Under the pieces are notes generated by a model that saw only the letters and a list, made by a program, of their open reading frames with translations, ran no database searches and was not told the origin of the DNA. The translations under genes and the position numbers were made by a program. Positions 28,893-56,196 of a stretch of DNA of 57,072 nt are shown piece by piece. This DNA is from a virus: positions 1 to 57,072 of the IMG/VR virus record IMGVR_UViG_3300044716_000998. The stretch is one strand, 5' to 3'. Each line of letters opens with the position of its first letter. The stretch's first letter is position 1.

Positions 28893-29702
28893 ATGTTTAA
28901 ACCAAAAGTATCCCATGAAGTACCTTTATGTCTTCTAGAACGAAGTAAACAATTTAATAATTATGATTATTGTTTACCTCATTTATTAGACCAAAATGAA
29001 GAGTATAAAGAGTATTTTCTCCAATCTAGTAAAGAAGGTCGTTACATTATAATGGATAATAGTCTCCATGAACTAGGAACACCATATTCAGAAGATAGAT
29101 TATTGTATTGGTTAGAAAAACTTCAACCTGATGAATTTATAGTTCCTGATCATTGGCAAGACAAAGACAAAACACTTAGAAGTGCGGATGAATGGATTCA
29201 AAAAGAATATGATTATCCAAATACTAAATTTGTAGCAGTTGTTCAAGCAAATAATCTTATGGAAGGTTTAGAATGTTTTAATACATTAAAAAACTCTTTA
29301 GGTTATAAAAAAATAGCAATTTCATATGGTGCAAGTTGGTATAATGATTTATCATTACATCCTGATCCAAATTTTGCTAAAATGATGGGTCGTATTTCGT
29401 TTGTAAAAACATTAGTAGATGATTATTCATTAAATGAACCATGGCAAGAAGTTAAATTACATTTATTAGGTTGTCAATTACCTCAAGAATTTGGTTATTA
29501 TCACCATTTAAGTTGCATTGAAACGATAGATACATCAAATCCAATTTTGGCCGGTATAGATAATATGCCTTATCAAAGTTATGGTTTAACATTAAAACCA
29601 AAAACTAGAATAGATGATATAATAGATGTACATCCTTATGATTTAAATTTGGCTTTAATATTAAATAACATAGATTTATTCCGTAAAATAAACAACATAT
29701 GA
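28893..29702 (+). CDS. dpdA: DpdA-like 7-deazaguanine DNA transglycosylase
   Basis: The 269-residue protein resembles phage members of the tRNA-guanine transglycosylase superfamily that exchange guanine in DNA for a 7-deazaguanine. Supporting segments are MDNSLHELG (about 52), IVPDHWQDKDKT (from 83; VPD...D is a TGT barrel motif), FVAVVQANN, HLLGCQLPQEFGYY and IETIDTSNP (209-217, with Asp213). It lacks the CxCxxC zinc motif of bacterial TGT and is shorter. Its stop overlaps queC by four bases, and queD, queE and folE follow, which is the strongest support. Which base is inserted cannot be read from sequence. Confidence 0.72.
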   Translation: MFKPKVSHEVPLCLLERSKQFNNYDYCLPHLLDQNEEYKEYFLQSSKEGRYIIMDNSLHELGTPYSEDRLLYWLEKLQPDEFIVPDHWQDKDKTLRSADEWIQKEYDYPNTKFVAVVQANNLMEGLECFNTLKNSLGYKKIAISYGASWYNDLSLHPDPNFAKMMGRISFVKTLVDDYSLNEPWQEVKLHLLGCQLPQEFGYYHHLSCIETIDTSNPILAGIDNMPYQSYGLTLKPKTRIDDIIDVHPYDLNLALILNNIDLFRKINNI

Positions 29703-30598
29703 AAAAACAAGCAGTTTTATCGTTAAGTGGAGGAATGGATAGTTCCACACTATTACTTCATCTACTAGCTAATAGTTATGAAGTCACAGCATTATCATTT
29801 GATTATGGACAAAAACATAATGTAGAATTAGAGCGTGCTAAAGATTTAGTTAATTATATTAATGAAAATCCTAGTCGAGTATTCCATCATGATCATGCTC
29901 CTAATGGATTTGAAGAAACATACCCATTAGTAAAACATCAAGTAATTAAACTAGATGGCTTATCTGAATTATTAAACTCAGCATTAGTTACTGGAGGTGA
30001 AGAAGTACCTGAAGGACATTATGCTGAAGAGAATATGAAAGCAACAGTAGTTCCGAATCGCAATAAGATTTTTAGTTCTATTATTCAAGCAGTTGCGTTG
30101 TCAATTGCTGAACAAAAAGATACTGATTGTGCTATTGCAATGGGAATACATGCTGGTGATCATGCTATTTATCCTGACTGTCGTCAAGAGTTTAGAGATG
30201 CTGATTTTGAAGCATTTAAAGCAGGTAATTGGGGTGCTGAAAAAGTATATTATTATACACCTTACCTTGATAATAATAAGGCTGGTATTTTAGTAGATGG
30301 AGATGACTGCTGTGAGCAATTAGGTCTTAATTTTAACACAGTATATTCCTTCACCAACACATCTTACAAACCAATTTATATCCCTTACCCTGAAAGCACA
30401 TCTAGAGTAGAAGAAGTATATAGAACTAAATGGGGAGAATGGTACTCAGATTACAAATCAGCATCATCAGTAGAACGAGTTGAAGCATTTATGAGACTTG
30501 GAAAAGTAGATCCAGTTGGCTATGCTGATGAGACAGGTCCTGTAAGTTGGGAAACAGTAGTTAAACATGTAGAACAAATATTAGAAAATCATGAGTAA
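29699..30598 (+). CDS. queC: 7-cyano-7-deazaguanine synthase (QueC), zinc ligands missing
   Basis: QueC turns CDG into preQ0 using ATP and ammonia. The PP-loop SLSGGMDSS (residues 8-16) is intact, and FDYGQKHNVELERAKDL and the VPNRNKIFSSI segment match QueC. The C-terminal zinc site is lost. The position of the usual WSCY reads YSFT, and the usual CGxCxSCxERxEAF reads DYKSASSVERVEAF, so all four cysteines are replaced. The protein is somewhat long (299 residues versus about 230). It sits between the DpdA-like gene and a thioredoxin-like gene. Confidence 0.88.
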   Translation: MKKQAVLSLSGGMDSSTLLLHLLANSYEVTALSFDYGQKHNVELERAKDLVNYINENPSRVFHHDHAPNGFEETYPLVKHQVIKLDGLSELLNSALVTGGEEVPEGHYAEENMKATVVPNRNKIFSSIIQAVALSIAEQKDTDCAIAMGIHAGDHAIYPDCRQEFRDADFEAFKAGNWGAEKVYYYTPYLDNNKAGILVDGDDCCEQLGLNFNTVYSFTNTSYKPIYIPYPESTSRVEEVYRTKWGEWYSDYKSASSVERVEAFMRLGKVDPVGYADETGPVSWETVVKHVEQILENHE

Positions 30599-30845
30599 AT
30601 CAATTTATTATTATAGTGCTGAATGGTGTGAGCCATGTAAAGCATTAGGCCCAACTATGGAGCAAATAGCAAAACAAATCCCAGTACAAAAACGAAATGT
30701 AGACTATACTGATCCTGCTATCATAGCAGAAGCGAAAGTTAGAAGTGTTCCTACAGTTGTATTGATGGAAAATGGAAGAGAACTTAAACGCTTTACAGGA
30801 AACAGATCGTTTAGTGAAATCATTAATTGGTTAAATGAAGGATAA
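30591..30845 (+). CDS. Thioredoxin-like protein 1
   Basis: The 84-residue minimal thioredoxin fold has the redox motif WCEPCK (Cys13, Cys16) and the cis-proline segment RSVPTVVLMENG. It overlaps queC by 8 bases and precedes queD by one base. Phage thioredoxin/glutaredoxin proteins usually reduce ribonucleotide reductase, and NrdA here keeps its C-terminal shuttle cysteines. Its place within the que operon hints at another or additional client. Confidence 0.85.
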   Translation: MSKSIYYYSAEWCEPCKALGPTMEQIAKQIPVQKRNVDYTDPAIIAEAKVRSVPTVVLMENGRELKRFTGNRSFSEIINWLNEG

Positions 30846-30846
30846 T

Positions 30847-31329
30847 ATGGCAACAAGATATGTATCAACTAAATTATTCGAGAATTACTCAGTAGCAATT
30901 CGACAATATAAAGCAGCACACTCACATTGCCAGTTATTACACGGTTATGCTTTAAAATTTAAAGTATGGTTTGCATCTAACGAACCTAATATTGATGAAC
31001 AGTTAGATGATATGAATTGGATTGTTGATTATGGTGGATTTAAAACACCACCTAAAGGTAATGGTTTAAAAGATTGGATGGATCATATGTGGGATCATAC
31101 AACATTAATTCAAGCTGATGATCCGTATCGTGATTTGTTTGAACAAATGCAAATGGAAGGTCTATGTAAAGTACATTTCTTAGAAAAGATGGGTGCTGAA
31201 AGTAATGCTCGTTTAGTATATGAACACTTTAATGAAGTATTATCTAAAACAGACGCAGGTCGTTGCAAGTGTATTAAAGTAGAGTGTTTTGAAAATGATA
31301 ATAATAGCTCAATTTACGAGGAAATATGA
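30847..31329 (+). CDS. queD: 6-carboxytetrahydropterin synthase (QueD)
   Basis: QueD makes carboxy-tetrahydropterin, the second step from GTP to preQ0. The protein shows FENYSVAIRQYKAAHSHCQLL followed by HGYALKFKV, which corresponds to the zinc-binding AAH...HGH region, with Tyr at the usual third-His position. DDMNWIVDYGGFK matches the catalytic D-F segment, and DHTTLI, ESNARLVYEHF and CIKVECFEND match the C-terminal part. ATG 30847 was chosen because it follows the thioredoxin stop by one base; an in-frame ATG at 30835 would overlap it. The operon context makes the function secure even with the altered HGH. Confidence 0.83.
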   Translation: MATRYVSTKLFENYSVAIRQYKAAHSHCQLLHGYALKFKVWFASNEPNIDEQLDDMNWIVDYGGFKTPPKGNGLKDWMDHMWDHTTLIQADDPYRDLFEQMQMEGLCKVHFLEKMGAESNARLVYEHFNEVLSKTDAGRCKCIKVECFENDNNSSIYEEI

Positions 31330-32108
31330 AACCAGGAAGAATAGAAGATTATAATAAAAAATTACCTATTGTAGAGTTATATACAGCTGTACAATCTGAA
31401 GGTAGTAGAGCAGGTATGCCTACGGTAGTTATTAGAACTACAGGTTGTACTCACAGATGTTGGTTTGGTGAAGGTGGATGGTGTGATTCATGGTATACAA
31501 GTATTCATCCTGAAAAAGGAAAATATACATTTAATGATATTATAACTATTTATGACAATAACCCTCATATTAGAGAAATGATGTTAACAGGTGGTTCACC
31601 TACAATGCATCCTGATCTAGTAAACGAATTAACCCATTTAGCAGAAAAACGTGGCTTATTTATCACAATTGAAACAGAAGGTTCTCATTTCATTGAAACT
31701 GACTACCCTATTGGTCTTATATCTCTTAGCCCTAAGTTTAGTAACAGCATTCCTGCACTTGGGACTCTTACACCGCAAGGTAAAATTGCGGACCAAAAGA
31801 TGGTGGACCAACATAACAAACACCGTCTTGATAAAGAAACGATAAGAAAAACGTTAGAGTATCACCACGATTATCATTTCAAACCAGTTTGTAATCCTAT
31901 TGAAATGCCTGAGGCATGGGAGGAAATTGAAGCATTTAGAATTGAAATGGATATTTCAAAACGTAAGACTTGGTTAATGCCTCCTGGTGATACAAGAGAC
32001 GAGTTAATTAGAGTTTACCCAATGGTGATGGATTTTTGTAGAGATAACGGCTATAACTTTACAGGAAGAGAGCATATTATAGCCTTTGACACTAAAAGAG
32101 AAGTTTAA
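31326..32108 (+). CDS. queE: 7-carboxy-7-deazaguanine synthase (QueE), radical SAM
   Basis: QueE is the radical SAM enzyme converting carboxy-tetrahydropterin to CDG. The N-terminal VELYTAVQSEGSRAGMPTVVIR is the characteristic QueE start, followed by the cluster loop GCTHRCWFGEGGWCDSW. The three cysteines are Cys41, Cys45 and Cys53, i.e. CX3CX7C instead of the usual CX3CX2C. MLTGGSPTMHPDLV is the GGE-like SAM motif (here GGS), and ISLSPKFSNS and WLMPPGD are also QueE features. It overlaps queD by four bases (ATGA) and is followed by a second thioredoxin-like gene. Confidence 0.87.
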   Translation: MKPGRIEDYNKKLPIVELYTAVQSEGSRAGMPTVVIRTTGCTHRCWFGEGGWCDSWYTSIHPEKGKYTFNDIITIYDNNPHIREMMLTGGSPTMHPDLVNELTHLAEKRGLFITIETEGSHFIETDYPIGLISLSPKFSNSIPALGTLTPQGKIADQKMVDQHNKHRLDKETIRKTLEYHHDYHFKPVCNPIEMPEAWEEIEAFRIEMDISKRKTWLMPPGDTRDELIRVYPMVMDFCRDNGYNFTGREHIIAFDTKREV

Positions 32109-32109
32109 A

Positions 32110-32397
32110 ATGAATAAACAACTACTAAAAGAAATCCTTCAAGACAAGAACGATAGCTTTATACTTTTTTACTCAGAAGATTGTATCCATTGTGGTATAG
32201 CAAGACCTATAATCCAAGAGCATGCTGCTAAAAAGATGATACCAGTGCATAGAATTGAAGAAACCACTAACAATGGAGACATATTCAATATGTTTAATGT
32301 AGATTTTTATCCTACATTGGTGCATATAAAATCAGGTAGAGTTTTAAAGTATGTCGGTGTAGATGATATAGTACAAATGATTAAAAATAGTAAATAA
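32110..32397 (+). CDS. Thioredoxin/glutaredoxin-like protein 2
   Basis: This 95-residue protein has the redox motif DCIHC (Cys25, Cys28) after a FILFYS strand, and a VDFYPTLVHIKSGRV cis-proline segment. ATG 32110 was chosen because it lies one base after the queE stop; an upstream TTG in frame would overlap queE. It shares its last base with the next gene start (TAATG). A second redox protein in the same operon is unusual and may serve a different client than the first. Confidence 0.8.
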   Translation: MNKQLLKEILQDKNDSFILFYSEDCIHCGIARPIIQEHAAKKMIPVHRIEETTNNGDIFNMFNVDFYPTLVHIKSGRVLKYVGVDDIVQMIKNSK

Positions 32398-32897
32398 TGC
32401 GACCTTTAATCTACTCAGAAAACATTAAAAACAGATGTTTTTCTATTGCTCATATAATAAACCAAAGACACCACGATACATCTGATCAAGTAGTATTTGC
32501 TTGTGTATTAAATGGAGGTTTTATGTTCTACACAGAACTTGTTAAAAACTTAAACTTTAATATAGAATGTGATTTTGTTCGAGTAAAAAGTTATATTGGT
32601 AAGAAAGAACAAGGTGATGTTGAAATTACTAAAGATTTAGAAACACCTATTAAAGATAAACATTTATATCTAGTTGATGACCTAATCGACTCAGGTAATA
32701 CTATGAAATATCTAATAGATTATATGAAAATTAAAGAACCTAAATCAATAACATTAGTTACATTATGTAAACGTAAAGATATTGAGTTCCCTAATCACAT
32801 TTATGGTTTTGAATTAAATGATGAATGGATTGTAGGAATGGGTTGCAATGATGAAAATGGTTTTAATAGAAATCTTACATCCATTTACTCAATCTAA
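32397..32897 (+). CDS. Phosphoribosyltransferase (HPRT-like)
   Basis: The 166-residue protein has the PRPP-binding signature LYLVDDLIDSGNTM (about residues 93-106), the VLNGGFMFYTELVKNL loop, and a FVRVKSYIGK flexible loop, which together resemble hypoxanthine-guanine phosphoribosyltransferases. It would make IMP or GMP from free base and PRPP. In this operon it could recycle guanine released when the transglycosylase exchanges bases, or handle 7-deazapurines; that is inference. It is followed by a host-type promoter for folE. Confidence 0.82.
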   Translation: MRPLIYSENIKNRCFSIAHIINQRHHDTSDQVVFACVLNGGFMFYTELVKNLNFNIECDFVRVKSYIGKKEQGDVEITKDLETPIKDKHLYLVDDLIDSGNTMKYLIDYMKIKEPKSITLVTLCKRKDIEFPNHIYGFELNDEWIVGMGCNDENGFNRNLTSIYSI

Positions 32898-32929
32898 TTT
32901 GGAAAAGTTAAAATTAATTGTTATATTTA
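32898..32929 (+). promoter_or_regulatory. Host-type promoter for folE
   Basis: TTTG at 32898-32901, 20 bases, TATATTTA at 32922-32929. The ATG at 32936 is only six bases after the -7 box, so the transcript is predicted to be leaderless or nearly so. Confidence 0.6.
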
Positions 32930-32935
32930 CACTAT

Positions 32936-33631
32936 ATGGAAAATAATAGAAGAAAATTTCACAACGATATTGAGTGTGTGAAAACAGGTTTAGCAAATGG
33001 TTCTGCCTTAGATCGTCCATTAACAGACGATGAAAAACAGCAAATGATTGAAGAAGCAACTGAACATTTTGGTAATTTCTTAACAGCATTAAAATGTGAT
33101 TGGCAAAATGATCCTAACTCTGCTGATACACCTCGTCGAGTAGCTAAAGCTTACGTTAATGATTTATGGGCCGGCCGATATAATGGATTTACTGATATTA
33201 CTTCATTCCCATCAGATGGATATGATGGTGTAATTATCGAACGTAATATCAATTTAACATCAATGTGCTCGCATCATCATCAAACAATTAGAGGTGTAGT
33301 TCATATTGGCTATATTGCAGGTGCTAAAGGTAGAGTAATTGGTTTATCTAAACTGAATCGTATTGTAGAACACTTTGGTCGTAGAGGTGCTATTCAAGAA
33401 CAATTAACAGCAGCTATTCACCAAGCAGTAAATAAGGTTTGTGAAGGTAACTTAGGTGTTATTGTAACTGTAGTTGCTACCCACAATTGTGTTAGTTGTA
33501 GAGGTATTAAACACCAAGGTGCTGCAATGGTTACTACTAAAGCATCAGGTGTGTTTATGGAAAACGATAATTTAGCACGTAAAGAATTTTTTGATTCACT
33601 TAAAATAAATAATGGTCATGTATCAATCTAA
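32936..33631 (+). CDS. folE: GTP cyclohydrolase I (FolE)
   Basis: FolE converts GTP to dihydroneopterin triphosphate, the entry step to preQ0 (and folate). Family motifs are clear: DTPRRVAKAYVNDLW, the zinc and active-site loop SMCSHHHQTIRGVVHIGYI, GLSKLNRIVEHFGRR, and THNCVSCRGIKH with the second zinc cysteine. The ATG at 32936 was chosen over an upstream TTG since it follows the promoter. The length (231 residues) fits. Its 3' end overlaps the next gene by 20 bases. Confidence 0.93.
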   Translation: MENNRRKFHNDIECVKTGLANGSALDRPLTDDEKQQMIEEATEHFGNFLTALKCDWQNDPNSADTPRRVAKAYVNDLWAGRYNGFTDITSFPSDGYDGVIIERNINLTSMCSHHHQTIRGVVHIGYIAGAKGRVIGLSKLNRIVEHFGRRGAIQEQLTAAIHQAVNKVCEGNLGVIVTVVATHNCVSCRGIKHQGAAMVTTKASGVFMENDNLARKEFFDSLKINNGHVSI

Positions 33632-34244
33632 ATTAGAAGAAAAACAAGCAGAACTTATTGAACTATTAACAACACAAGTTGCTGATTTATCTATGATGTC
33701 TAAAATTGAATTTGGAGATGATGTTGTTAAAAAATGGAACAGACTATCAAATGAAATTAATAGTATAAAAGAAAATTATGTTCCGTTTGTTAGCGAAGTA
33801 GAAGAATTTAACGCTACAATGGGTAAACCAAACAATTATGAACCTACTATTCCATCTAAAGATGAATGGATGTTTGTTTATAATTTTATATTAGAAGAAC
33901 TAGAAGAATATAAAGACGCATGCGAAACAGGAAACATCGTAGAGGTTTTAGACGCATTATGCGATATTACCTACGTGTCTTTAGGAAACGGGGCTATGTT
34001 GCACGGTTTAAAAGACCAAATTCTACCCGCTTACTTAGAGGTGCAAGCAAGTAATATGTCTAAAGCTTGTAAAACAGAAGAAGAAGCTAACTTCACTGTT
34101 AAACTTAGAGAACAAGAACAAGGAGAGAGTTGCCATTACGAAAAACAAGGCGACTATTATATAGTATATCGTTCTCGAGATCGTAAAGTAATGAAATCAG
34201 TAAACTATTTCCGCCCAAATTTAAAACAATTTTTAAATAAATAG
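33612..34244 (+). CDS. MazG/PRA-PH-like nucleotide pyrophosphohydrolase
   Basis: The 210-residue protein contains an all-alpha NTP pyrophosphatase domain: EELEEYKDACETGNIVEVLD then ALCDITYVSLGNG (about residues 94-126), with the EExxE...ExxD metal-binding layout of MazG and phosphoribosyl-ATP pyrophosphohydrolases. It could sanitise nucleotide pools or hydrolyse a modified nucleotide. A helical N-terminal extension (1-70) and a basic C-terminal region (YRSRDRKVMKSV) flank it. It starts within the end of folE; ATG 33612 or 33618 is possible. Confidence 0.7.
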   Translation: MVMYQSKLEEKQAELIELLTTQVADLSMMSKIEFGDDVVKKWNRLSNEINSIKENYVPFVSEVEEFNATMGKPNNYEPTIPSKDEWMFVYNFILEELEEYKDACETGNIVEVLDALCDITYVSLGNGAMLHGLKDQILPAYLEVQASNMSKACKTEEEANFTVKLREQEQGESCHYEKQGDYYIVYRSRDRKVMKSVNYFRPNLKQFLNK

Positions 34245-34300: not shown

Positions 34301-36202
34301 ATGGCACTTACTCTCCGTTTAGAAAAAGGATATGAATTAACATATGCTGAATTAGATGGTAATTTTACATTTATTACATCTAGTTTCTTAAGTACAGCTT
34401 CCTTTAATGATTTTATGGCTAATGCCTCAATCACTGGTTCATTAAATGGTACAGCATCATACGCATTAACAGCATCATACGTAGATTTAGCAAACTTATC
34501 TTCTACAGCATCATATGCTTTAACAGCGTCATATGTGGATTTAGCAGTTTTGTCTTCTACAGCTTCATATGCGCTAACAGCGTCATATATAGATTCACCA
34601 AATATTACAGCTAATAATATTACTGTCATTAATGATATAGTAATTGGCAATAATGGTACTATAAACGGTCAAAATATATTAACAACTGCGGATGCATCAC
34701 AATTTGTAACCTCAGTTAATGGAATTTTCCCAACAGCAGGTAACGTATCTGTATCATTAACAGCAGTACTTACAGGTACATCTGCTTCATTAGCCGCGTC
34801 TTCATCAGGAGCAGTTACAGGTTCATTAGCTAACGGAGTATTATGGGTAGTGTCAGGAGATGCTACACCTGCTAATAATGGTGATGCCTATATATTCCAA
34901 TCTGGATCAGTAGGTCAATGGTTAACAGTAGCTCCATTTGATTTAGCTGTAGGAGATGCTCGATATGTACTTCAATACGGAGACGGAGCTATAACAGGAT
35001 CATTTGTAATCTCAGGATCAGGAGTAACAGTAGACTTAAAAGGTGATACTACCATTTCTGGATCATTAAGATTTGAAGAGAGCTATGGTGTAAATGATTT
35101 AACTAATAGATTATCTATAGATCCTAATGTTAGAGAATTGTACGATATTAACGGTACAGCAGTAATAAATTGGGAAAATTATGACTTAATTGACCCCAGT
35201 GGTGTTAGAAGTATAGATTGGGAAGATAGACAATTAAAAGATTATACTAATAATATATCATTAAATTGGGATGACCGTGAATACTACTACCCAAATGAAA
35301 ATACAGCTATATCATTAGGTACTCAAGATGTTATCAAGGTAATTGGTTTAATGCAACTTACAGGTAGCATGACCCAAGGAGAGAACACTACAGCAATAGG
35401 TAACTACTCACATGCTGAAGGTACTTTCACCTCAGCAGCAGGTAATTGGTCTCACGCTGAAGGAAGTGCTAATAAAGCAATAGGAGATTGGTCTCATGCT
35501 GAAGGAGGTCAAACAACAGCAAAAGGAGATTTATCTCATGCTGAAGGTAATAACACTAAAGCAGTAGGCATATATTCACACTCTGAAGGAATCAACACAT
35601 TAGCTTCAGGCGCTTATTCCCATGCTGAAGGATTACTCACAATAGCGTCAGGTGCTTATTCCCATGCTGAAGGATCAGGATCTATATCTTTGGGTATCTA
35701 CTCACACGCTGAAGGAATTGACACAGACGCAATTGGAATCAGTTCACATGCTGAAGGATGGTCTACAACAGCTGTAGGACAAGGATCACATTCTGAAGGT
35801 ATATCCACAGTAGCGATAGGTACATATTCACATGCTGAAGGTGATAATACAACTGCTAAAGGAACTAGATCACACGCTGAAGGATGGTATACTATAGCAG
35901 GAGGTGCTTGGTCACATGCTCAAGGTGTTTATAACTTAGAATCTTCTAATGATTTTTCATTTATCATAGGTAATGGTACTGATGGTAGTAATAGGAGTAA
36001 CTTATTATACGCTTCTGGATCACAAGTACAAGTAACAGGATCACTAGCGATTTCGGGATCTGTATCAACAGGAAACGGAACAATAATCCTACCAGGGCTA
36101 GTATTAGCTAGTTATGCTGATGATACAACCGCCGCAGCAGCTGGTATTCCAATAGGTGGATTATATAGAAATGGAAGCTTTATACAAATTAGATTAGTTT
36201 AA
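34301..36202 (+). CDS. SHAEG-repeat fibre/adhesin protein 2
   Basis: The 633-residue protein has the N-terminal module shared with the third paralogue (LRL..G..LTY.ELD.NFTFITSSF), then three copies of an STASYALTASYVD-type repeat (about residues 50-103) common in tail fibres, a beta-rich stalk, and a distal block of 13 SHAEG repeats (about residues 368-545). A short non-repetitive C-terminus ends in GGLYRNGSFIQIRLV. It lies in a five-gene fibre region with its own late-type promoter. Host adhesion is inferred from the YadA-head-like repeats. Confidence 0.75.
   Translation: MALTLRLEKGYELTYAELDGNFTFITSSFLSTASFNDFMANASITGSLNGTASYALTASYVDLANLSSTASYALTASYVDLAVLSSTASYALTASYIDSPNITANNITVINDIVIGNNGTINGQNILTTADASQFVTSVNGIFPTAGNVSVSLTAVLTGTSASLAASSSGAVTGSLANGVLWVVSGDATPANNGDAYIFQSGSVGQWLTVAPFDLAVGDARYVLQYGDGAITGSFVISGSGVTVDLKGDTTISGSLRFEESYGVNDLTNRLSIDPNVRELYDINGTAVINWENYDLIDPSGVRSIDWEDRQLKDYTNNISLNWDDREYYYPNENTAISLGTQDVIKVIGLMQLTGSMTQGENTTAIGNYSHAEGTFTSAAGNWSHAEGSANKAIGDWSHAEGGQTTAKGDLSHAEGNNTKAVGIYSHSEGINTLASGAYSHAEGLLTIASGAYSHAEGSGSISLGIYSHAEGIDTDAIGISSHAEGWSTTAVGQGSHSEGISTVAIGTYSHAEGDNTTAKGTRSHAEGWYTIAGGAWSHAQGVYNLESSNDFSFIIGNGTDGSNRSNLLYASGSQVQVTGSLAISGSVSTGNGTIILPGLVLASYADDTTAAAAGIPIGGLYRNGSFIQIRLV
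35400..35926 (+). repeat. 42-bp coding repeat array (SHAEG), 13 units
   Basis: Thirteen 42-base units run from the first SHAEG near 35405 to the degenerate last unit SHAQG near 35912. Several neighbouring units are near-identical, for example two consecutive GAYSHAEG units. Confidence 0.85.
35444..35506 (+). repeat. 63-bp exact repeat shared with 3872-3934
   Basis: The segment is identical in every base to part of fibre gene 1, 31.5 kb away. This indicates recent exchange between the two arrays or a very recent common origin. Confidence 0.85.
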
Positions 36203-38166: not shown

Positions 38167-40143
38167 ATGTCTTTAATACTCAGATTAGCCCAAGGTTCAG
38201 CTTTAACCTACCAACAATTAGATGATAACTTTACATTTATTACATCTAGTTTTTGCCCTAACTCAGCTACAGGATCATTTGCGATTACAGGATCTAATAA
38301 TTTTAGTGGGTCTCAATATATCACTGGTTCATTAACAAACGGAGCAGATTGTAACTCAGCAATAGGTCTTTACTCACATGCCGAAGGTGATTGCTCTACA
38401 GCTATAGGATCATCATCTCATGCTGAAGGATATTTTACTACCGCTGTAGGTATTTATTCACACGCTGAAGGTAATTTGACTATAACAATAGGAAGTGCCT
38501 CACACGCTGAAGGAATCCAAACTGTTGCAGCTGGAACTAGTTCACATGCTGAAGGACAAATAACAACAGCTAAAGGAATTGCCTCACATGCTGAAGGATA
38601 TAATACTACTGCTAATGGGACAGGCTCACATGCTGAAGGATATCTTACTTATATAAATGGAGACTACTCACATGCTGAAGGGTTATTAAGTATAGTTGCT
38701 CCTGGAGCATTTGGAGCACACGCTGAAGGACAAGCCACATTAGTTTTTAATACTGGCACACACGCTGAAGGATTATCTACTACAGCTATATTACCGTATT
38801 CACATACTGAAGGTGAAAAAACTACAACATTAGCATATAACTCACATGCTGAAGGATTATACTCAATAACTTTAGGATATGGATCACATGCTGAAGGTTC
38901 AAGTTCTATAGCAGTAGGAGATACTTCACACGCTGAAGGATTTCAAACAACATCAATAGGAACAGCATCACATGCTGAAGGAACTCTCACTACAGCAGTA
39001 GGTACATACTCACACGCAGAAGGGTATAGCTCAAAAGCATTAGGTAATTTTGGTTCACATGCTGAAGGATATATCACAACTGCTATAGGAGAAGTAGCCC
39101 ACTCTGAGGGAGTATTTACAGTAGCGATTGGTCAAAATTCTCACACTGAAGGTCAAAGCACAACAGCAATTGGAGTAGCATCCCACACTGAAGGATATTT
39201 AACAACCACTAAAGGTGATTATTCACACGCTGAAGGAATTTCTACAATAGCGTCAGGTGCTTATTCACATGCTGAAGGGTCAGGTTCTATAGCAATAGGA
39301 ATTGCTTCACATGCTGAAGGATTTCAAACAACAGCTAAAAATATCTACTCACACGCTGAAGGAGTAATTACAATAGCATCAGGTGCTTACTCACATGCTG
39401 AGGGATTTAATACAAAAGCAAATGGACTTTACTCACACGCTGAAGGATCATCAACAACTGCGGCAGGTGGTAGTTCACACGCTGAAGGAGGTAGCACTAT
39501 TTCAATAGGGGACCATTCACATACTGAAGGATTTCAAACAACAGCTATAGGAGACTATTCACATACTGAAGGAAGATTCACCACTACAACAGGAAATTAC
39601 TCACATGCTGAAGGTGTTCATACTACAGCAAATTTTTATTCTCATGCTGAAGGCTCAGGCTCAGTAGCAGCAGGAAGTGGTTCGCATGCTGAAGGCAATT
39701 TAACTACATCTATTGGGAAGTATTCACACTCTGAAGGAATTCAAACAACATCTATAGGCTTTTATTCACATGCTGAGGGATATTACAATACTGCTATTGG
39801 AGAAGCTTCACATGCCGCTGGTAATAGTACTACTGCTTTAGGAGATGCATCATTCACAACCGGATATAATCTTGTAGCTTCAGGATCATTCCAAACTGTT
39901 GTAGGTAAAAATAACACAGCAGGTGATGATACTAGCTTATTTATTGTAGGTATTGGTGAAGGAAAATTAGAAGATGGATTTAAAGTAACTCAATCTGGCT
40001 CAATTGTTATAAGCGCGTATTCTACTGCTCCCGCATGGACAGGAACTGAAGGAGAATTAGTATTTTACAGTAATGCAGGAACAGTTAGATTGTACGCTTG
40101 GGATAGTTTTGGAGCTGTTTGGAGATCATCTTCATTTGCTTAA
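38167..40143 (+). CDS. SHAEG-repeat fibre/adhesin protein 3
   Basis: The 658-residue protein starts with the shared N-terminal module (residues 1-35), has a short SATGSFAITGSNN linker, and then about 35 SHAEG repeats that fill residues 65-555. The C-terminal block APAWTGTEGELV...FGAVWRSSSFA is homologous to the end of fibre protein 1. The YadA-head-like repeats suggest a long trimeric beta-roll adhesin. Whether the three paralogues form one fibre, three fibres or alternative tips cannot be decided from sequence. Confidence 0.8.
   Translation: MSLILRLAQGSALTYQQLDDNFTFITSSFCPNSATGSFAITGSNNFSGSQYITGSLTNGADCNSAIGLYSHAEGDCSTAIGSSSHAEGYFTTAVGIYSHAEGNLTITIGSASHAEGIQTVAAGTSSHAEGQITTAKGIASHAEGYNTTANGTGSHAEGYLTYINGDYSHAEGLLSIVAPGAFGAHAEGQATLVFNTGTHAEGLSTTAILPYSHTEGEKTTTLAYNSHAEGLYSITLGYGSHAEGSSSIAVGDTSHAEGFQTTSIGTASHAEGTLTTAVGTYSHAEGYSSKALGNFGSHAEGYITTAIGEVAHSEGVFTVAIGQNSHTEGQSTTAIGVASHTEGYLTTTKGDYSHAEGISTIASGAYSHAEGSGSIAIGIASHAEGFQTTAKNIYSHAEGVITIASGAYSHAEGFNTKANGLYSHAEGSSTTAAGGSSHAEGGSTISIGDHSHTEGFQTTAIGDYSHTEGRFTTTTGNYSHAEGVHTTANFYSHAEGSGSVAAGSGSHAEGNLTTSIGKYSHSEGIQTTSIGFYSHAEGYYNTAIGEASHAAGNSTTALGDASFTTGYNLVASGSFQTVVGKNNTAGDDTSLFIVGIGEGKLEDGFKVTQSGSIVISAYSTAPAWTGTEGELVFYSNAGTVRLYAWDSFGAVWRSSSFA
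38365..39825 (+). repeat. 42-bp coding repeat array (SHAEG), about 35 units
   Basis: About 35 units of 42 bases encode the SHAEG motif without a large interruption. Two slightly longer units (near 38690-38780) insert extra residues such as the PGAFG segment. Confidence 0.85.
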
Positions 40144-44220: not shown

Positions 44221-45840
44221 ATGAGCAAAATTATTGAATTCGGACCCGAAGCACGAAAAAAATTAGTTAACGGGATTGATAAACTAGCAAATGCAGTTAC
44301 ATCAACATTAGGCCCTAACGGCCGCAACGTAGTAATTTCTAAACCTGGAGACTATCCAGTATCTACAAAAGATGGAGTTACTGTAGCAAAAAGTATTGAA
44401 CTTGAAGACCCAATTGAAGAATTAGGTGTTCAAATGGTTAAACAAGCAGCTATTAAAACAGCAGACAATGCAGGAGATGGAACAACTACTTCTACATTAT
44501 TAGCTCAAGAGATGGTTAAAGCAGGCTTAACACATTTAAGTAATGGAGCAAACGCAGTAGAAATTAAACGTAATATAGACGCTGCAGTTAAAGAAGTAGT
44601 TAATGAACTACGTAGAAACATATCTCAAGATATTAGTTCTGAGGAACAACTTGAACAAGTAGCAACTATCTCAGCAAATAATGACCCTGAAGTAGGAAAA
44701 TTGATAGCTACAGCGATGAATAAAGTAGGAAGAGAAGGTGTAGTTCATATTGAAGAGTCTAAATCAGGCGAAACTTATCTTGAGACAGTAGAAGGAATGC
44801 AATTTGATCGTGGTTACAAATCTCATTATTTTGTAACAGATAATAACTCAATGAGTTGTGTTTTAGAAAATCCTATGATACTTATTGCTGATAAGCGATT
44901 AACTCAAGTTAAAGATTTATTACCGATTTTAGAAGGTGTATCTGCTCAAAACAGACCATTATTCATAATCGCTGAAGATCTTGAAGGTGAAGCATTAGCT
45001 ACATTAATTGTAAACAAAATGAGAGGTACAATTAAAGTATGCGCAGTTAAAGCACCTGACTTTGGAGATCGCAGGAAATTAATTTTAGAAGACATCGCCA
45101 TTCTAACTGGTGGTCAAGTGTTTAGTACTGAGAAAGGTATGAAACTTGATAAATTTAACTGGGATTGGTTTGGCGAAGCCAGAGTAATAACAATAACAAA
45201 AGATGAAACAACCATTGTTGACGGAAGAGGAGAATCTGAACGAATACAAACACGTATTGAAGAGTTACAGCTCCAAATCGAAAAAACAAAAACACCTTTC
45301 GAACAAGAAAAACTCCAAGAAAGACTCGCGAAATTTGTCGGAGGAGTAGCTATCATCCACGTAGGTGGAAATACTGAAACTGAAGTTAAAGAAAAGAAAG
45401 ACCGAGTTGATGATGCACTTCAAGCAACTAAAGCTGCAATTGAAGAAGGTATTGTACCAGGAGGTGGAGCAGCATTAATTTACGCTCGTGAAGCAATTTC
45501 AAACCGCGAATCAATAGGAGGTAAAATTGTATATAAAGCATGCGGTGCTCCATTTATGAAAATTCTTACTAATGCTGGTTATACTGATCAAGAATCATTT
45601 GGGTTGATTAATGAATTACTAGGATGTAATCTTAATTGGGCAGGATATAATCTTAAAACAGAGATATTTGTCGATATGAAAGATGCTGGTATTATTGATC
45701 CAACTAAAGTTACTCGCACAGCAATCGAGAATGCAGCTTCAGTAGCAGGAACAATTCTATTAACAGAATGTACTATTGTAGATAAGCCTGAAGATAATAA
45801 ACAAGATAATAGTATGGCTAACATGGGAGGAATGTTCTAA
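44221..45840 (+). CDS. groEL: Chaperonin GroEL
   Basis: The full-length chaperonin (539 residues) would form the folding chamber. The equatorial ATP-binding motifs are intact: TLGPNGRNVVI, STKDGVTVAKSIEL and NAGDGTTTSTLLAQEM. Apical and hinge segments are present (QFDRGYKSHYFVTD, KVCAVKAPDFGDRRK, EEGIVPGGGAALIYA), and the tail keeps a shortened SMANMGGMF in place of the usual GGM repeats. A phage-encoded GroES/GroEL pair probably folds the major capsid or tail proteins. Base composition is like its phage neighbours, so it is not a recent host insertion. Confidence 0.96.
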   Translation: MSKIIEFGPEARKKLVNGIDKLANAVTSTLGPNGRNVVISKPGDYPVSTKDGVTVAKSIELEDPIEELGVQMVKQAAIKTADNAGDGTTTSTLLAQEMVKAGLTHLSNGANAVEIKRNIDAAVKEVVNELRRNISQDISSEEQLEQVATISANNDPEVGKLIATAMNKVGREGVVHIEESKSGETYLETVEGMQFDRGYKSHYFVTDNNSMSCVLENPMILIADKRLTQVKDLLPILEGVSAQNRPLFIIAEDLEGEALATLIVNKMRGTIKVCAVKAPDFGDRRKLILEDIAILTGGQVFSTEKGMKLDKFNWDWFGEARVITITKDETTIVDGRGESERIQTRIEELQLQIEKTKTPFEQEKLQERLAKFVGGVAIIHVGGNTETEVKEKKDRVDDALQATKAAIEEGIVPGGGAALIYAREAISNRESIGGKIVYKACGAPFMKILTNAGYTDQESFGLINELLGCNLNWAGYNLKTEIFVDMKDAGIIDPTKVTRTAIENAASVAGTILLTECTIVDKPEDNKQDNSMANMGGMF

Positions 45841-49364: not shown

Positions 49365-50807
49365 ATGAATTCAAGTTTTGCTTACTTGCCTCAAAACGAG
49401 AGGAAAAAAATCTTATTAATTTGTGACGACCTTAGAGTACATTCAGGAGTAGCTACAGTAGCTAGAGAAATGGTACTTAACACCGCTCAGCATTTTAATT
49501 GGGTAAACATAGGTGGAGCCATTAACCACCCAGAACAAGGTAAACGATTAGATTTATCCCAAGACACTAATACAAACACAGGGTTAGAAGATGCCTCAGT
49601 TGTATTATATCCAACTAATGGATATGGTGATACTAATCTTATTCGTGCTCTTATTAAATTAGAGAAACCAGATGCTATTTTCTTAATTACTGACCCAAGA
49701 TATTTTGCTTGGTTGTTTCAAATTGAAAATGAGATTAGAAGAAAAATACCAATTGTATATTTAAACATTTGGGATGACTATCCTGCTCCTCATTATAATA
49801 AAGCATTTTATGAATCATGTGATGCGTTATTAGCTATTTCTAAACAAACTAAAAATATTAATGAATTAGTATTAAATGATAAAGTAGGTGATAAAATACT
49901 TAGATATGTGCCTCATGGTTTGAATCATGATATTTTTAAACCTATTGATGAATCTTATCCTCAATATAAAGAGTTTTTAGAATTTAAAAAACAATTATTT
50001 AAAGGTAAAGAATTTGATTTTGTTTTATTCTTTAACTCTAGAAACATTAGAAGAAAACAAATACCTGATACATTATTAGCATATAGATACTTTATTGATC
50101 AATTACCTATTGAACAAGCTAAAAAATGTGCTTTTGTATTACATACTAATGTTATGGATGATAATGGTACTGACTTAGAAGCCGTTCGAGAATTATTCTT
50201 AACAGGAGAACAATACAATATATTTTTCTCAGAACAAAGAATGGACCCAGATCGTATGAATTGGTTATACAATTGTACTGATGCTCAAATCTTATTAACA
50301 TCTAATGAAGGATGGGGATTAAGTTTAACTGAGGCTATATTAGTAGGAAATCCAATTATAGCCAATGTAACAGGTGGAATGCAAGATCAAATGCGCTTTA
50401 GTAAAAAAGGAAAATGGATTGATTTTGACGCTGATTTTCCTTCAAACCATAATGGCACTATTAAAGAACATGGTGAATGGGCATTTCCAGTATACCCAAC
50501 TAACAGATCAATTCAAGGTTCTATTCCAACACCTTACATTTGGGATGACAGATGCAACTCTGAAGATGCAGCTGAACAAATCATGAATGTCTATAATTTA
50601 GGTAAAGAAAAAAGAAAAGCATTAGGATTAAAAGGTCGCGAATGGGCTTTAGGTGATGAAGCAGGATTCACAGGCGAAAGAATGGGTGCTAGAGTAATTG
50701 AAGCGTTAAATGAATTATTTTCAACTTGGAAACCAAGAGAAAAATATGAGTTTATAAACGCTAATGAATATAAAGAAAAAGTTGCTAATCATAAATTGTT
50801 ATATTAA
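49365..50807 (+). CDS. Glycosyltransferase, GT-B fold (family 4-like)
   Basis: The 480-residue protein shows a two-Rossmann GT-B layout. The N-terminal domain has KKILLICDDLRVHSGVATVA, like the glycine-rich donor loops of GT4 enzymes, and the C-terminal domain has FNSRNIRRKQIPDTLLAY and ILLTSNEGWGLSLTEAILVG with the acidic E...E donor-binding motif. The acceptor is unknown. It is the first of six sugar-related genes and probably modifies a glycan on the virion, host surface or DNA. Confidence 0.8.
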   Translation: MNSSFAYLPQNERKKILLICDDLRVHSGVATVAREMVLNTAQHFNWVNIGGAINHPEQGKRLDLSQDTNTNTGLEDASVVLYPTNGYGDTNLIRALIKLEKPDAIFLITDPRYFAWLFQIENEIRRKIPIVYLNIWDDYPAPHYNKAFYESCDALLAISKQTKNINELVLNDKVGDKILRYVPHGLNHDIFKPIDESYPQYKEFLEFKKQLFKGKEFDFVLFFNSRNIRRKQIPDTLLAYRYFIDQLPIEQAKKCAFVLHTNVMDDNGTDLEAVRELFLTGEQYNIFFSEQRMDPDRMNWLYNCTDAQILLTSNEGWGLSLTEAILVGNPIIANVTGGMQDQMRFSKKGKWIDFDADFPSNHNGTIKEHGEWAFPVYPTNRSIQGSIPTPYIWDDRCNSEDAAEQIMNVYNLGKEKRKALGLKGREWALGDEAGFTGERMGARVIEALNELFSTWKPREKYEFINANEYKEKVANHKLLY

Positions 50808-50809
50808 TC

Positions 50810-52114
50810 ATGAACAAACCGTTATTTGTAATATCTTGCCCTATAGACTGTTATGCAGGATATGGAGCGCGTAGTAGAGACTTAGTTAAAGCAATCATTG
50901 CTACTGATAAGTATGATGTTAAAATTCTTCCACAACGTTGGGGAGAGACACCTTGGGGATTCATTGAAGAAAATCCAGAATGGACATTCTTAAATAATCA
51001 TATTTTAGATCAACCTCAATTGCCTAAACAACCTGAGATTTGGATGCAAATCACAGTACCAAATGAGTTCCAACCAGTTGGAAAATATAATATTGGAGTA
51101 ACAGCAGGTATCGAAACAACTATATCTCCAGGAGATTGGATTGAAGGAATTAATAGAATGGATTTGACTTTAGTATCATCTAATCATTCGAAAAAAACAT
51201 TCCTTGAAACAATCATACAAAAAGTAGATCAACGTACAAATCAACCTTTAGGTGAAATTAAAGTACAAAAACCAATTGAAGTATTATTCGAAGGTGCTAA
51301 TACAGACATCTACAAATATCTTGATACTATACCTAAAAACACATTCCCTGAAATAGATAACATTCCTGAGTCATTTGCTTATTTGTTTGTTGGACACTGG
51401 ATTAATGGTGATTTAGGTGAAGATAGAAAAAATGTAGGTTTATTAGTTAAAGCATTCTATGAAATCTTTAAAAATAAGAAAAATAAACCAGCATTAATTT
51501 TGAAAACTTGTCAAGTAGGATCATCTTATATGGACCGAGATGAGATTTTAAAGAAAATAACATTTATTAAGAAAACAGTTAACTCAACAGATCTACCTAA
51601 CATTTATATTTTACATGGAGAGTTTAGTGACAGCGAGATGAATGAGTTATATAACCATGATAAAATAAAAGCAATGGTTAATTTAACTAAAGGTGAAGGA
51701 TTTGGAAGACCATTACTTGAATTTAGTTTAACTAAAAAACCAATCATAACAACTAATTGGAGTGGACATACAGATTTCTTAAACCCAGAATTCACTACAA
51801 TGTTACCAGGTACTTTAACTCCAGTTCACCCAAGTGCTGCTAACCATATGTTATTAAAAGAAGCAAATTGGTTCTCAGTAGAACAAGGTCAAATGGGAGC
51901 TCGGGTTAAAGATATATTTGAAAACTATAAAAATTATATTGATGGTGCTAAACGCCAAGCATATAAAAATAAAAATGAATTTAGTTGGGATAAAATGAAA
52001 GACAAGTTAGATGAAATTTTAACTAAAAACATACCTGATTTTCCAAAACAAGCAGAGTTAAAATTGCCTCAACTAAAAAAGATAGAATTACCTAAATTAC
52101 AAACTAATGGATAA
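50810..52114 (+). CDS. Glycosyltransferase, GT-B fold, second copy
   Basis: The 434-residue protein starts with FVISCPIDCYAGYGARSRDL, a GT4-type N-terminal loop, and has KAMVNLTKGEGFGRPLLEFS followed by KPIITTNWSGHTDFL, the EGFGRP...E motif of the nucleotide-sugar site. A lysine/proline-rich tail ends the protein. It starts two bases after the preceding transferase and overlaps the next gene by eight, so they form one operon. Confidence 0.8.
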   Translation: MNKPLFVISCPIDCYAGYGARSRDLVKAIIATDKYDVKILPQRWGETPWGFIEENPEWTFLNNHILDQPQLPKQPEIWMQITVPNEFQPVGKYNIGVTAGIETTISPGDWIEGINRMDLTLVSSNHSKKTFLETIIQKVDQRTNQPLGEIKVQKPIEVLFEGANTDIYKYLDTIPKNTFPEIDNIPESFAYLFVGHWINGDLGEDRKNVGLLVKAFYEIFKNKKNKPALILKTCQVGSSYMDRDEILKKITFIKKTVNSTDLPNIYILHGEFSDSEMNELYNHDKIKAMVNLTKGEGFGRPLLEFSLTKKPIITTNWSGHTDFLNPEFTTMLPGTLTPVHPSAANHMLLKEANWFSVEQGQMGARVKDIFENYKNYIDGAKRQAYKNKNEFSWDKMKDKLDEILTKNIPDFPKQAELKLPQLKKIELPKLQTNG

Positions 52115-54040: not shown

Positions 54041-55186
54041 ATGAAGAAAATTTTAATATTTGCCTCAGATAATAGGGGTTATAATGAAATTAGAAATGTA
54101 GTTAATGAATTATCTCAATGTGAATGTGATTATTTATTTATCTACCCTATAAACGGAGAATTAACGTTTGAATCCAATATTGATTACTCTAAATACCCTA
54201 ATTTTGAATCTAAATCTATAGGCTTTACATTACCATTCAAACCAGATATACTATTAATTACTAGAGAAGCATGGCATCCAGAAACAAGTTTAATAGTAGA
54301 ATTTAAACAAGCTGGAGCTATAATTTGTAATCTAGAAAATTCATCTTGGCTTTATAACAATATAAAAACTCGATTAGAGATTTTAAGTAGAATGAAGTTC
54401 CCAACTAATATGATTGATATGTTCTTTGATCATAGTTATTGGACTTATGAAACTAAAACTAAAGCAGGATGGGTTAAAACTAAATCTCAAATAGTAGGAA
54501 TTCCAAAATTTGATAATTTAAAAAATATATCTACTAAAGACATAGAACAAAAATATAATATAACTAAACCTGTGATAGTATTATATGGTTCAATGGAAGA
54601 TAATATTAGACCAAATATTATAAAGGTATCTAAAGAAATAGAATCTATCTACAAAGATACTCATCATTTATTCTATAAACCTCACCCTAAAGAATTTACA
54701 GATTACTCAAGTGAATTTAAAGATAAATGTTTAGTTGCGTCTCCTTCATTTAGAGTTATAGATGATGAAGGAGAAATGTATGCTTTTGCTAAACTTGGGG
54801 ACATACATATAGGAATAATAACATCAGTGATGTATTACCCTTTATATTTTAATAAATCTATATTTTATATCTCTGACAATAGTGGAGTACTATCAGATAT
54901 GGAATTTAATAATTTTAAAGGCAATGAATATAACTTCTGGGCTCCATTAATGAATGTTAGTTCTTGGGATGAATTTGTAGATAAAATAGGAGAACATAGA
55001 GTAGAAGAATTTAAAGAAAGATATAACTTTTTCATAGAAAACTTTAAAAATACTTTGAAATCATATAAAGGTGACTTATCTTTATATCATTATGATAACA
55101 CTTCTTTATTAAAATACTATGATGATTTTAATGATGGAAGAGCATCTAAACGTGTAGTGAAACATTTATTAAATTTATATAATTAA
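54041..55186 (+). CDS. Glycerophosphotransferase/glycosyltransferase-like protein (GT-B)
   Basis: The 381-residue protein has a GT-B-like layout with IVLYGSMEDNIRPNIIKVSK and HHLFYKPHPKEFTDY (KPHP motif) in the second domain. This combination is found in CDP-glycerol glycerophosphotransferases and related polysaccharide transferases. GIITSVMYYPLYFNKSIFYI could be the donor-binding strand. Exact donor and acceptor are unknown. It begins one base after the upstream stop, and its own stop shares a base with the next start. Confidence 0.6.
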   Translation: MKKILIFASDNRGYNEIRNVVNELSQCECDYLFIYPINGELTFESNIDYSKYPNFESKSIGFTLPFKPDILLITREAWHPETSLIVEFKQAGAIICNLENSSWLYNNIKTRLEILSRMKFPTNMIDMFFDHSYWTYETKTKAGWVKTKSQIVGIPKFDNLKNISTKDIEQKYNITKPVIVLYGSMEDNIRPNIIKVSKEIESIYKDTHHLFYKPHPKEFTDYSSEFKDKCLVASPSFRVIDDEGEMYAFAKLGDIHIGIITSVMYYPLYFNKSIFYISDNSGVLSDMEFNNFKGNEYNFWAPLMNVSSWDEFVDKIGEHRVEEFKERYNFFIENFKNTLKSYKGDLSLYHYDNTSLLKYYDDFNDGRASKRVVKHLLNLYN

Positions 55187-56196
55187 TGAGATTAAATTTT
55201 GACAAAAAAACAATCCTCATAACTGGAGGAACAGGTTCATTAGGTAGAGCTATCATTCAACGACTTAAACAATATGATTGTAAAATTATTGTTTATAGTA
55301 GAGATGAAGGCAAACAAGCTTTATATTTTGGACAAGATAAATCTATTATTAAAGTGATAGGTGATGTTAGGGATTATGAACAACTAGTGAAAACTATGAA
55401 AAAACATAAACCTAATTATGTTATACACACAGCTGCTTTGAAGCGAATAGATGATATGGAATATTACCCTGAAGAGTGTGTTAAGACAAATATACAAGGT
55501 TCTATAAATGTAGCTAATGCATCTATGGAAGCAATGGTAGATAAATGTATATTAGTGTCTACTGATAAAGCTTGTGTTCCTATTAATGTTTATGGTGCCT
55601 CTAAGTTTACAGCTGAGAGATTATTTAGTAATTTTGATTACAATTCTACTCATACTATCTTTAGTTCTGTAAGATATGGAAATGTAATTGCTAGTAGAGG
55701 ATCATTTATCCCATTATGGATGGGGTTATTAGATCAAGAAAAAGATATAAATGTTACATCATTAGATTGTACTCGATTCTTATTTACCTTAGAAGATGCT
55801 GTTAATACAGTATTATCATCTTTACTTAATAGTATTGGAGGAGAAGTATTTATTCCATACTTTGATTCATTTGATATGGAAACTATTATTAAATCTTTAT
55901 CTAACATAACTAACAAAGACATTAAGTATAATGTAATAGGTATGCGACCAGGAGAAAAATTCCATGAGGATATGATAGCTAAAACAGAGTTGCCATTTAC
56001 TTATCATTCTGAGTTTTTAGATGGATTTACAACTGAGCATTGTAATAAATTACTTTGTGTAATACCTCAATTCACAGACAAACAATATCCTCTTGAGAAA
56101 TATACAGGACCTGAATTTAACTCAGGTATGTTCTTAAATGACTCAGTTCAATATTTAACAGATTTAATTAATAAAGGATTACGAGATGCTAACTAA
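55186..56196 (+). CDS. Nucleotide-sugar 4,6-dehydratase (CapD/PseB-type SDR)
   Basis: The 336-residue extended SDR has the NAD(P)-binding ILITGGTGSLGRAI (residues 10-23), the GDVRDYEQLVKTM strand, HTAALKRIDDMEYYPEECVK, STDKACVPINVYGASKF with the YxxxK catalytic pair, and SVRYGNVIASRGSFIPLW. The pattern is that of UDP-GlcNAc 4,6-dehydratases (PseB, FlaA1, CapD soluble form). The product keto-sugar could be aminated by the next enzyme. It overlaps the aminotransferase gene by 11 bases. Confidence 0.85.
   Translation: MRLNFDKKTILITGGTGSLGRAIIQRLKQYDCKIIVYSRDEGKQALYFGQDKSIIKVIGDVRDYEQLVKTMKKHKPNYVIHTAALKRIDDMEYYPEECVKTNIQGSINVANASMEAMVDKCILVSTDKACVPINVYGASKFTAERLFSNFDYNSTHTIFSSVRYGNVIASRGSFIPLWMGLLDQEKDINVTSLDCTRFLFTLEDAVNTVLSSLLNSIGGEVFIPYFDSFDMETIIKSLSNITNKDIKYNVIGMRPGEKFHEDMIAKTELPFTYHSEFLDGFTTEHCNKLLCVIPQFTDKQYPLEKYTGPEFNSGMFLNDSVQYLTDLINKGLRDAN

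Follow-up and report, generated by a model that had tools for sequence, protein, structure and literature searches.

A conserved phage operon predicted to modify DNA with a 7-deazaguanine, carrying a hypoxanthine-guanine phosphoribosyltransferase gene and a zinc-free QueC variant

For a phage that exchanges guanine for another base after replication, each modified position leaves one guanine to be disposed of. Which base enters the DNA, and what becomes of the guanine that leaves it, are the questions raised by an operon in IMG/VR virus record IMGVR_UViG_3300044716_000998, of which the whole stretch analysed (57,072 nucleotides; 57 kb), a fragment of a genome, is referred to below as the window. 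Nine tightly packed genes on the plus strand (28893-34244), with consecutive overlaps of a few bases, encode in this order a DpdA-like protein, QueC, a thioredoxin, QueD, QueE, a thioredoxin-like protein, hypoxanthine-guanine phosphoribosyltransferase (HGPRT), FolE and a MazG-like protein. A first-pass annotation of the letters of the window had described FolE, QueD, QueE, QueC and the DpdA-like gene as contiguous and overlapping, and all of them lie where it placed them, on the same strand. Its reading of the locus as 7-deazaguanine DNA modification is supported by the pathway genes, by the predicted transglycosylase fold and by the active-site aspartates, and the operon is very probably a phage modification system of this known kind that acts on DNA. 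Two features go further than the schemes described in the literature searched: the linkage of HGPRT to the operon and the zinc-free QueC.

The product of the first gene matches none of the Pfam and NCBIfam models, so the label DpdA-like was checked by profile and fold comparison, and it held. A direct sequence search of the PDB with this protein alone yields no transglycosylase. All 50 PDB matches listed for its AlphaFold2 model (pLDDT 95.5) are tRNA-guanine transglycosylases (probability 1.00, best E 8.6e-9), with moderate TM-scores of 0.53-0.65 of the query. D55, D86, H190, G193 and D213 are invariant in an alignment of 15 diverse members of the family, and in a profile comparison with DpdA1, D55 pairs with the DSG aspartate, HLLG with HAFG, and D213 with the DSS aspartate. 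The transglycosylase barrel and the active aspartates, on which the annotation had made its label depend, are both found, the one in the predicted fold and the other as invariant D55, D86 and D213. The best PDB match of the family profile is a bacterial DNA-guanine transglycosylase (7ui4), a weak match over the HLLG...D stretch (E 0.004). The protein belongs to PHROG 19058 (function unknown) together with gp056 of Campylobacter phage CP220 and gp206 of Flavobacterium phage immuto, whose record annotates its copy as DpdA. The Campylobacter-type enzyme is reportedly DpdA3, and is said to replace guanine fully. Judged by predicted fold and active site, the protein of the window is a DNA-guanine transglycosylase, which would exchange the base on DNA.

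Where phages have Que genes without a DpdA, these genes have been proposed to raise the queuosine content of host tRNA (PMC6884629), and those of the window might serve this end instead of modifying DNA. Such a role is most improbable here, as the transglycosylase falls among DpdA-type proteins of phages and, at 269 residues, is about 100 residues shorter than the tRNA-guanine transglycosylases (about 360-370).

FolE, QueD, QueE and then QueC would convert GTP to 7-cyano-7-deazaguanine (preQ0), which the DpdA-like enzyme would put in place of guanine in the DNA of the phage itself, freeing one guanine per exchange, and the modified DNA should block host restriction enzymes. The matches of QueC, QueD, QueE and FolE are all above the Pfam gathering cut-offs; the stricter NCBIfam equivalog cut-offs are reached by none of them, nor by HGPRT. 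In DpdA, FolE, QueD, QueE and QueC, the last being a variant, the window matches the phage preQ0 group (group 2, PMC6884629). The operon order is kept across dozens of independent contigs, which excludes a chance arrangement. When viral sequences were scanned with the QueC of the window, 368 stretches were found to encode a relative; examination of the best 80 showed every one of them to be of the zinc-free type. Among about 100 related environmental phages, the operon is almost always accompanied by HGPRT and a QueC without the zinc motif; the system seems to be common in such phages. The small thioredoxin gene beside queC equals the pathway genes in conservation, being present in 45 of the 47 QueC loci counted, each with at least 6.5 kb downstream. 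Promoter matches in the window are no more numerous than the shuffled level.

The phosphoribosyltransferase that had been noticed in the operon is specifically HGPRT-like. TIGR01203 covers the whole protein (5e-41; 140 bits, under the equivalog cut-off of 150), and many solved HGPRTs in the PDB match it. D94, D95, D98, S65-Y66 and R158 are invariant across the phage family, and with them the PRPP (phosphoribosyl pyrophosphate) loop, DDLIDSG, the SY pair and the expected catalytic aspartate; a lysine is conserved as in HGPRT (TIGR01203). Use of guanine or hypoxanthine is predicted. The dN/dS of the gene against its nearest relative is 0.08. In a tree, the HGPRTs of phages cluster in a single clade, distinct from 17 bacterial HGPRTs sampled outside the Flavobacteriia (support 100/100). 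HGPRT occurs in 40 of the 47 QueC loci, near the frequency of FolE (41) and QueD (43). An HGPRT-seeded search, restricted to the best 80 of 476 matches and leaning to the clade because its profile was made from operon members, found DpdA, QueC, QueD or QueE in 64 of 72 new loci; over both searches, such genes lie within 10 kb at 101 of the 110 distinct loci of phage HGPRT. Where FolE is present, HGPRT is on its strand in 90 of 91 loci, with a median gap of 39 nt. The linkage persists through rearrangement, HGPRT coming after QueC in L065, L088, L102 and L104, and also where DpdA is placed downstream (L133-L150).

HGPRT might nevertheless be an enzyme of general purine salvage that supplies nucleotides, for instance out of host nucleic acids that have been broken down, with an incidental place in the operon. 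The operon does follow nrdB/nrdA and replication genes, HGPRT phages without DpdA or QueC exist, and the phosphoribosyltransferase of Cellulophaga phage phiST is far from its DpdA. On the other hand, in about 90% of cases HGPRT lies close to folE/queE, across rearrangements, and no PF00156 protein is found in six control phages that have DpdA of other types (CAjan, nt-1, Dp-1, Lars, EC151 and HCTV-1). Five loci (L118, L122, L124, L126 and L148) carry the same HGPRT with no Que, FolE or DpdA gene within the stretch, L122 (112 kb) and L124 (173 kb) lacking DpdA and QueC over the whole record; L122, L124 and L126, however, branch within the operon-linked HGPRT clade, as if the operon had been lost. 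Pure salvage is rather unlikely, and recycling of the exchanged guanine is the more plausible function. Several observations tell against recycling: CP220, with the same DpdA family, has no phosphoribosyltransferase at all; some clade members (L063, L067, L069 and L078) have no HGPRT; and the records of 173 kb (G014) and 112 kb (G019) carry HGPRT with neither DpdA nor QueC, which rules out that HGPRT is exclusive to DpdA phages, though in the tree both branch among operon-linked members. Of the earlier suggestion that the phosphoribosyltransferase recycles freed guanine, the enzyme type, its conservation in the operon and its absence from the six controls speak in favour; since HGPRT is not exclusive to DpdA-bearing phages, the recycling itself is something we infer. 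A gene of phage BSTP5 in the position of HGPRT, between queE and folE, turned out to encode an HNH endonuclease.

In the recycling scheme, HGPRT would join freed guanine with PRPP to give GMP, so that the purine flows back into the GTP used by FolE, and would take away a product that otherwise drives the exchange backwards. Because transglycosylation is in principle reversible, removal of guanine should favour high replacement. As an estimate, about 52,000 guanines would be present in a genome of some 160 kb with 32% GC; complete exchange in 100 progeny would then release about 5 million of them, which in a 1 fl cell corresponds to roughly 9 mM. The operon-conserved HGPRT makes this cost of guanine disposal testable. 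Alternatively, the HGPRT-like enzyme might charge the 7-deazaguanine to a nucleotide, which would then be inserted by a polymerase; a phosphoribosyltransferase, which uses a base, indeed lies beside a pathway that makes one and beside genes for ribonucleotide reductase. This route is very improbable, as it is made unnecessary by the transglycosylase, and D98, the aspartate expected at N7, is invariant as in ordinary HGPRTs, while 7-deazaguanines have no N7 to protonate.

Canonical QueC has the motifs SGGxDS, YxQxHxxE, VPxRN and YPDC together with a zinc motif, C(x)8CxxCxxC, and acts in two steps via 7-amido-7-deazaguanine (ADG) (Libby et al., 2026; PMC13329287). The QueC of the window keeps the first four motifs, which are present as written in 117 of 124 clade QueCs, the remaining members differing in YPDC only. 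It also retains the tyrosine equivalent to the essential Y189, as aligned with an E. coli QueC sequence and other canonical sequences taken from loci, and its predicted structure still matches QueC best (2pg3, 3bl5). All four zinc cysteines are lost, and the region reads TNTSYKP...SDYKSASSVERVEAF. The zinc motif is missing in 108 of 108 distinct full-length clade QueCs, 106 of which carry the replacement motif TNTSYKP...SDYKSASSVERxEAF. It is present in 83 of 86 QueC loci checked in cellular genomes and other phages, and the three loci without it are members of the phage clade found in metagenome bins. By these motifs, the protein is a QueC-like, zinc-free variant. That it still makes preQ0 is suggested by immuto-like relatives with such a QueC, because they encode QueF, the substrate of which is preQ0. 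The variant is a case provided by nature in which the function of the QueC zinc site can be tested.

For gene sets of this kind, published reasoning predicts preQ0 in DNA (PMC6884629), and preQ0 had been named as the base on account of the lack of QueF, ArcS-like and amidotransferase genes in the window. A gene missing from the window alone means little because the window is a fragment; the absence, however, extends beyond it. In nine related records of 128-180 kb, including the closest relative, G001 (127,786 bp; DpdA 95% identical), neither a formyltransferase nor a GATase_6 domain nor a QueF match above the cut-off was found, ArcS not having been searched for, and control genomes in these searches responded as expected. 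Weak QueF-profile matches under the cut-off in G006, G011 and G012 are located inside FolE genes. QueF and formyltransferase occur together in all six immuto-like records, namely immuto itself (W02), G008, G010, G015, G016 and G017, and the other clade records searched lack both, which suggests two lineages of the clade with different final bases. The absence of QueF from the nine records strengthens the case for preQ0, which is the favoured candidate for the main base in the phage DNA. Two points weaken this case: the related records may be incomplete, and the loss of the zinc ligands that define canonical QueC could alter preQ0 synthesis.

The latter point leads to ADG as the final base, if a zinc-free QueC halts after its first, amide-forming step. 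The two-step route passes through ADG (PMC13329287), the loss of the zinc motif is uniform in the clade, and Campylobacter phages, in whose DNA the deoxynucleoside of ADG (dADG) has been reported (PMC6884629), have a DpdA of the same PHROG. However, zinc loss does not track dADG, because CP220 QueC keeps its zinc cysteines; immuto-like phages pair a zinc-free QueC with formyltransferase and with QueF, which needs preQ0; and the Y189-equivalent tyrosine, YPDC, VPxRN and YxQxHxxE are all retained. ADG is thus a rather unlikely end product. The loss of zinc was also considered as a marker of dADG phages and was rejected, as CP220 has the cysteines and the QueF-bearing relatives do not. Further processing of the base to preQ1 or a derivative, by a host QueF or by phage genes beyond the window, is less probable still: the window is only a fragment, the sister lineage (immuto, G008, G010 and G015-G017) encodes QueF and formyltransferase, and a Bacteroides control genome has QueF, but G001 and the eight other 128-180 kb records have no formyltransferase, no GATase_6 and no QueF match that reaches the cut-off.

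With preQ0 as the preferred base, the whole explanation, in which preQ0 is synthesized, DpdA exchanges it for guanine, HGPRT recycles the guanine and host restriction is blocked, is a likely one. More tentative, and perhaps somewhat doubtful, is a closed cycle throughout the large environmental clade, in which HGPRT would pull the exchange to full replacement and the zinc-free QueC would make the preQ0. Neither the HGPRT linkage nor the zinc-free QueC was found in the literature searched, which excluded the most relevant DpdA study; within the same literature, nothing relevant was found on HGPRT with 7-deazaguanine phages, and the disposal of guanine freed by post-replicative exchange is treated nowhere.

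QueD and QueE of the operon also depart from their usual motifs. In QueD, CxxxHGY replaces CxxxHGH in 134 of 135 matches (the window, L002, L003, L010, L013 and L296-L300 among them), and the first zinc histidine is also replaced in most aligned members, so that two of the three residues which we take to be zinc ligands, from those of E. coli QueD, are changed. The CxxxHGY type is also present in Pseudomonas, Stenotrophomonas, Rhizobium and Synechococcus phages. The idea that the whole pathway avoids zinc was discarded, since FolE retains its zinc residues and the QueD change is common to many other phages. The cluster loop of QueE is CTHRCWFGEGGWC (CX3CX7C) against the usual CX3CX2C, with identical spacing in 122 matches. 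The QueD of the window is 43% identical to that of its nearest relative, L005, while the neighbouring genes are 86-100% identical, as if QueD had been swapped.

Table 1. Genes of the predicted 7-deazaguanine operon in the window
Product	Position	Strand	Evidence
DpdA-like DNA-guanine transglycosylase (putative), 269 aa	28893..29702	+	AlphaFold2 fold, profile matches, PHROG 19058
QueC-like (7-carboxy-7-deazaguanine to preQ0, predicted), without zinc motif	29699..30598	+	PF06508 5.5e-37; fold match 2pg3/3bl5
Thioredoxin (WCEPC), adjoins queC	30591..30845	+	PF00085 4.4e-15
QueD-like 6-carboxytetrahydropterin synthase, CxxxHGY type	30835..31329	+	PF01242 2.4e-10; phrog_2389 8e-31
QueE-like radical SAM enzyme, cluster motif CTHRCWFGEGGWC	31326..32108	+	Radical_SAM 2.8e-8; phrog_2076 5.5e-49
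Thioredoxin-like protein; ATG start probably 32107	32086..32397	+	PF00085 4.9e-8
HGPRT-like; proposed guanine recycler	32397..32897	+	TIGR01203 5e-41; PDB HGPRTs
FolE, GTP cyclohydrolase I; zinc residues CSHH and HxC present	32918..33631	+	PF01227 1.1e-41
MazG/PRA-PH-like nucleotide pyrophosphohydrolase, often beside folE	33612..34244	+	PF01503 1.1e-8; phrog_671 4.9e-28

The gene for the MazG-like pyrophosphohydrolase is often 3' of folE, and is so placed in phiST as well (L003, 6555-7142). The window contains T4-like replication genes, encoding a UvsX-like protein, a DnaB-like helicase, a single-strand binding protein, a clamp loader and NrdA/NrdB. Elsewhere in it, two adjacent glycosyltransferases (phrog_2170) and a nucleotide-sugar epimerase (49365-52114 and 55186-56196) might decorate the virion or DNA, large proteins with many SHAEG repeats (34301-36202 and 38167-40143) resemble tail-fibre or adhesin head repeats, and a phage GroEL is encoded at 44221-45840 (phrog_5725, 4e-158).

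Escherichia phage CAjan and Mycobacterium phage Rosebush carry deoxy-preQ0 (dPreQ0) in their DNA (PMC6884629). Like the window, they combine the preQ0 pathway with a DNA transglycosylase, with no amidotransferase gene found; their DpdA is of another family, and the operon of the window adds HGPRT, two thioredoxin-like genes, MazG and the zinc-less QueC. Flavobacterium phage immuto (NC_055915) has the same DpdA family (34.9% identity), a zinc-free QueC (61% identical), QueD, QueE, FolE, the hydrolase and a phosphoribosyltransferase between queE and folE, but unlike the window it encodes QueF and formyltransferase, its phosphoribosyltransferase is short (131 aa), and its QueC lies about 11 kb from the other genes. 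In Campylobacter phage CP220, the gp056 DpdA is 39.6% identical over 98% of the protein, whereas the genes are scattered, QueC has zinc cysteines and a phosphoribosyltransferase is absent. With canonical QueC (PMC13329287), the window protein shares the fold and the four motifs, with all four zinc cysteines replaced. The phage HGPRT matches TIGR01203 over its whole length, and differs from known HGPRTs in forming a phage-specific clade within a DNA-modification operon.

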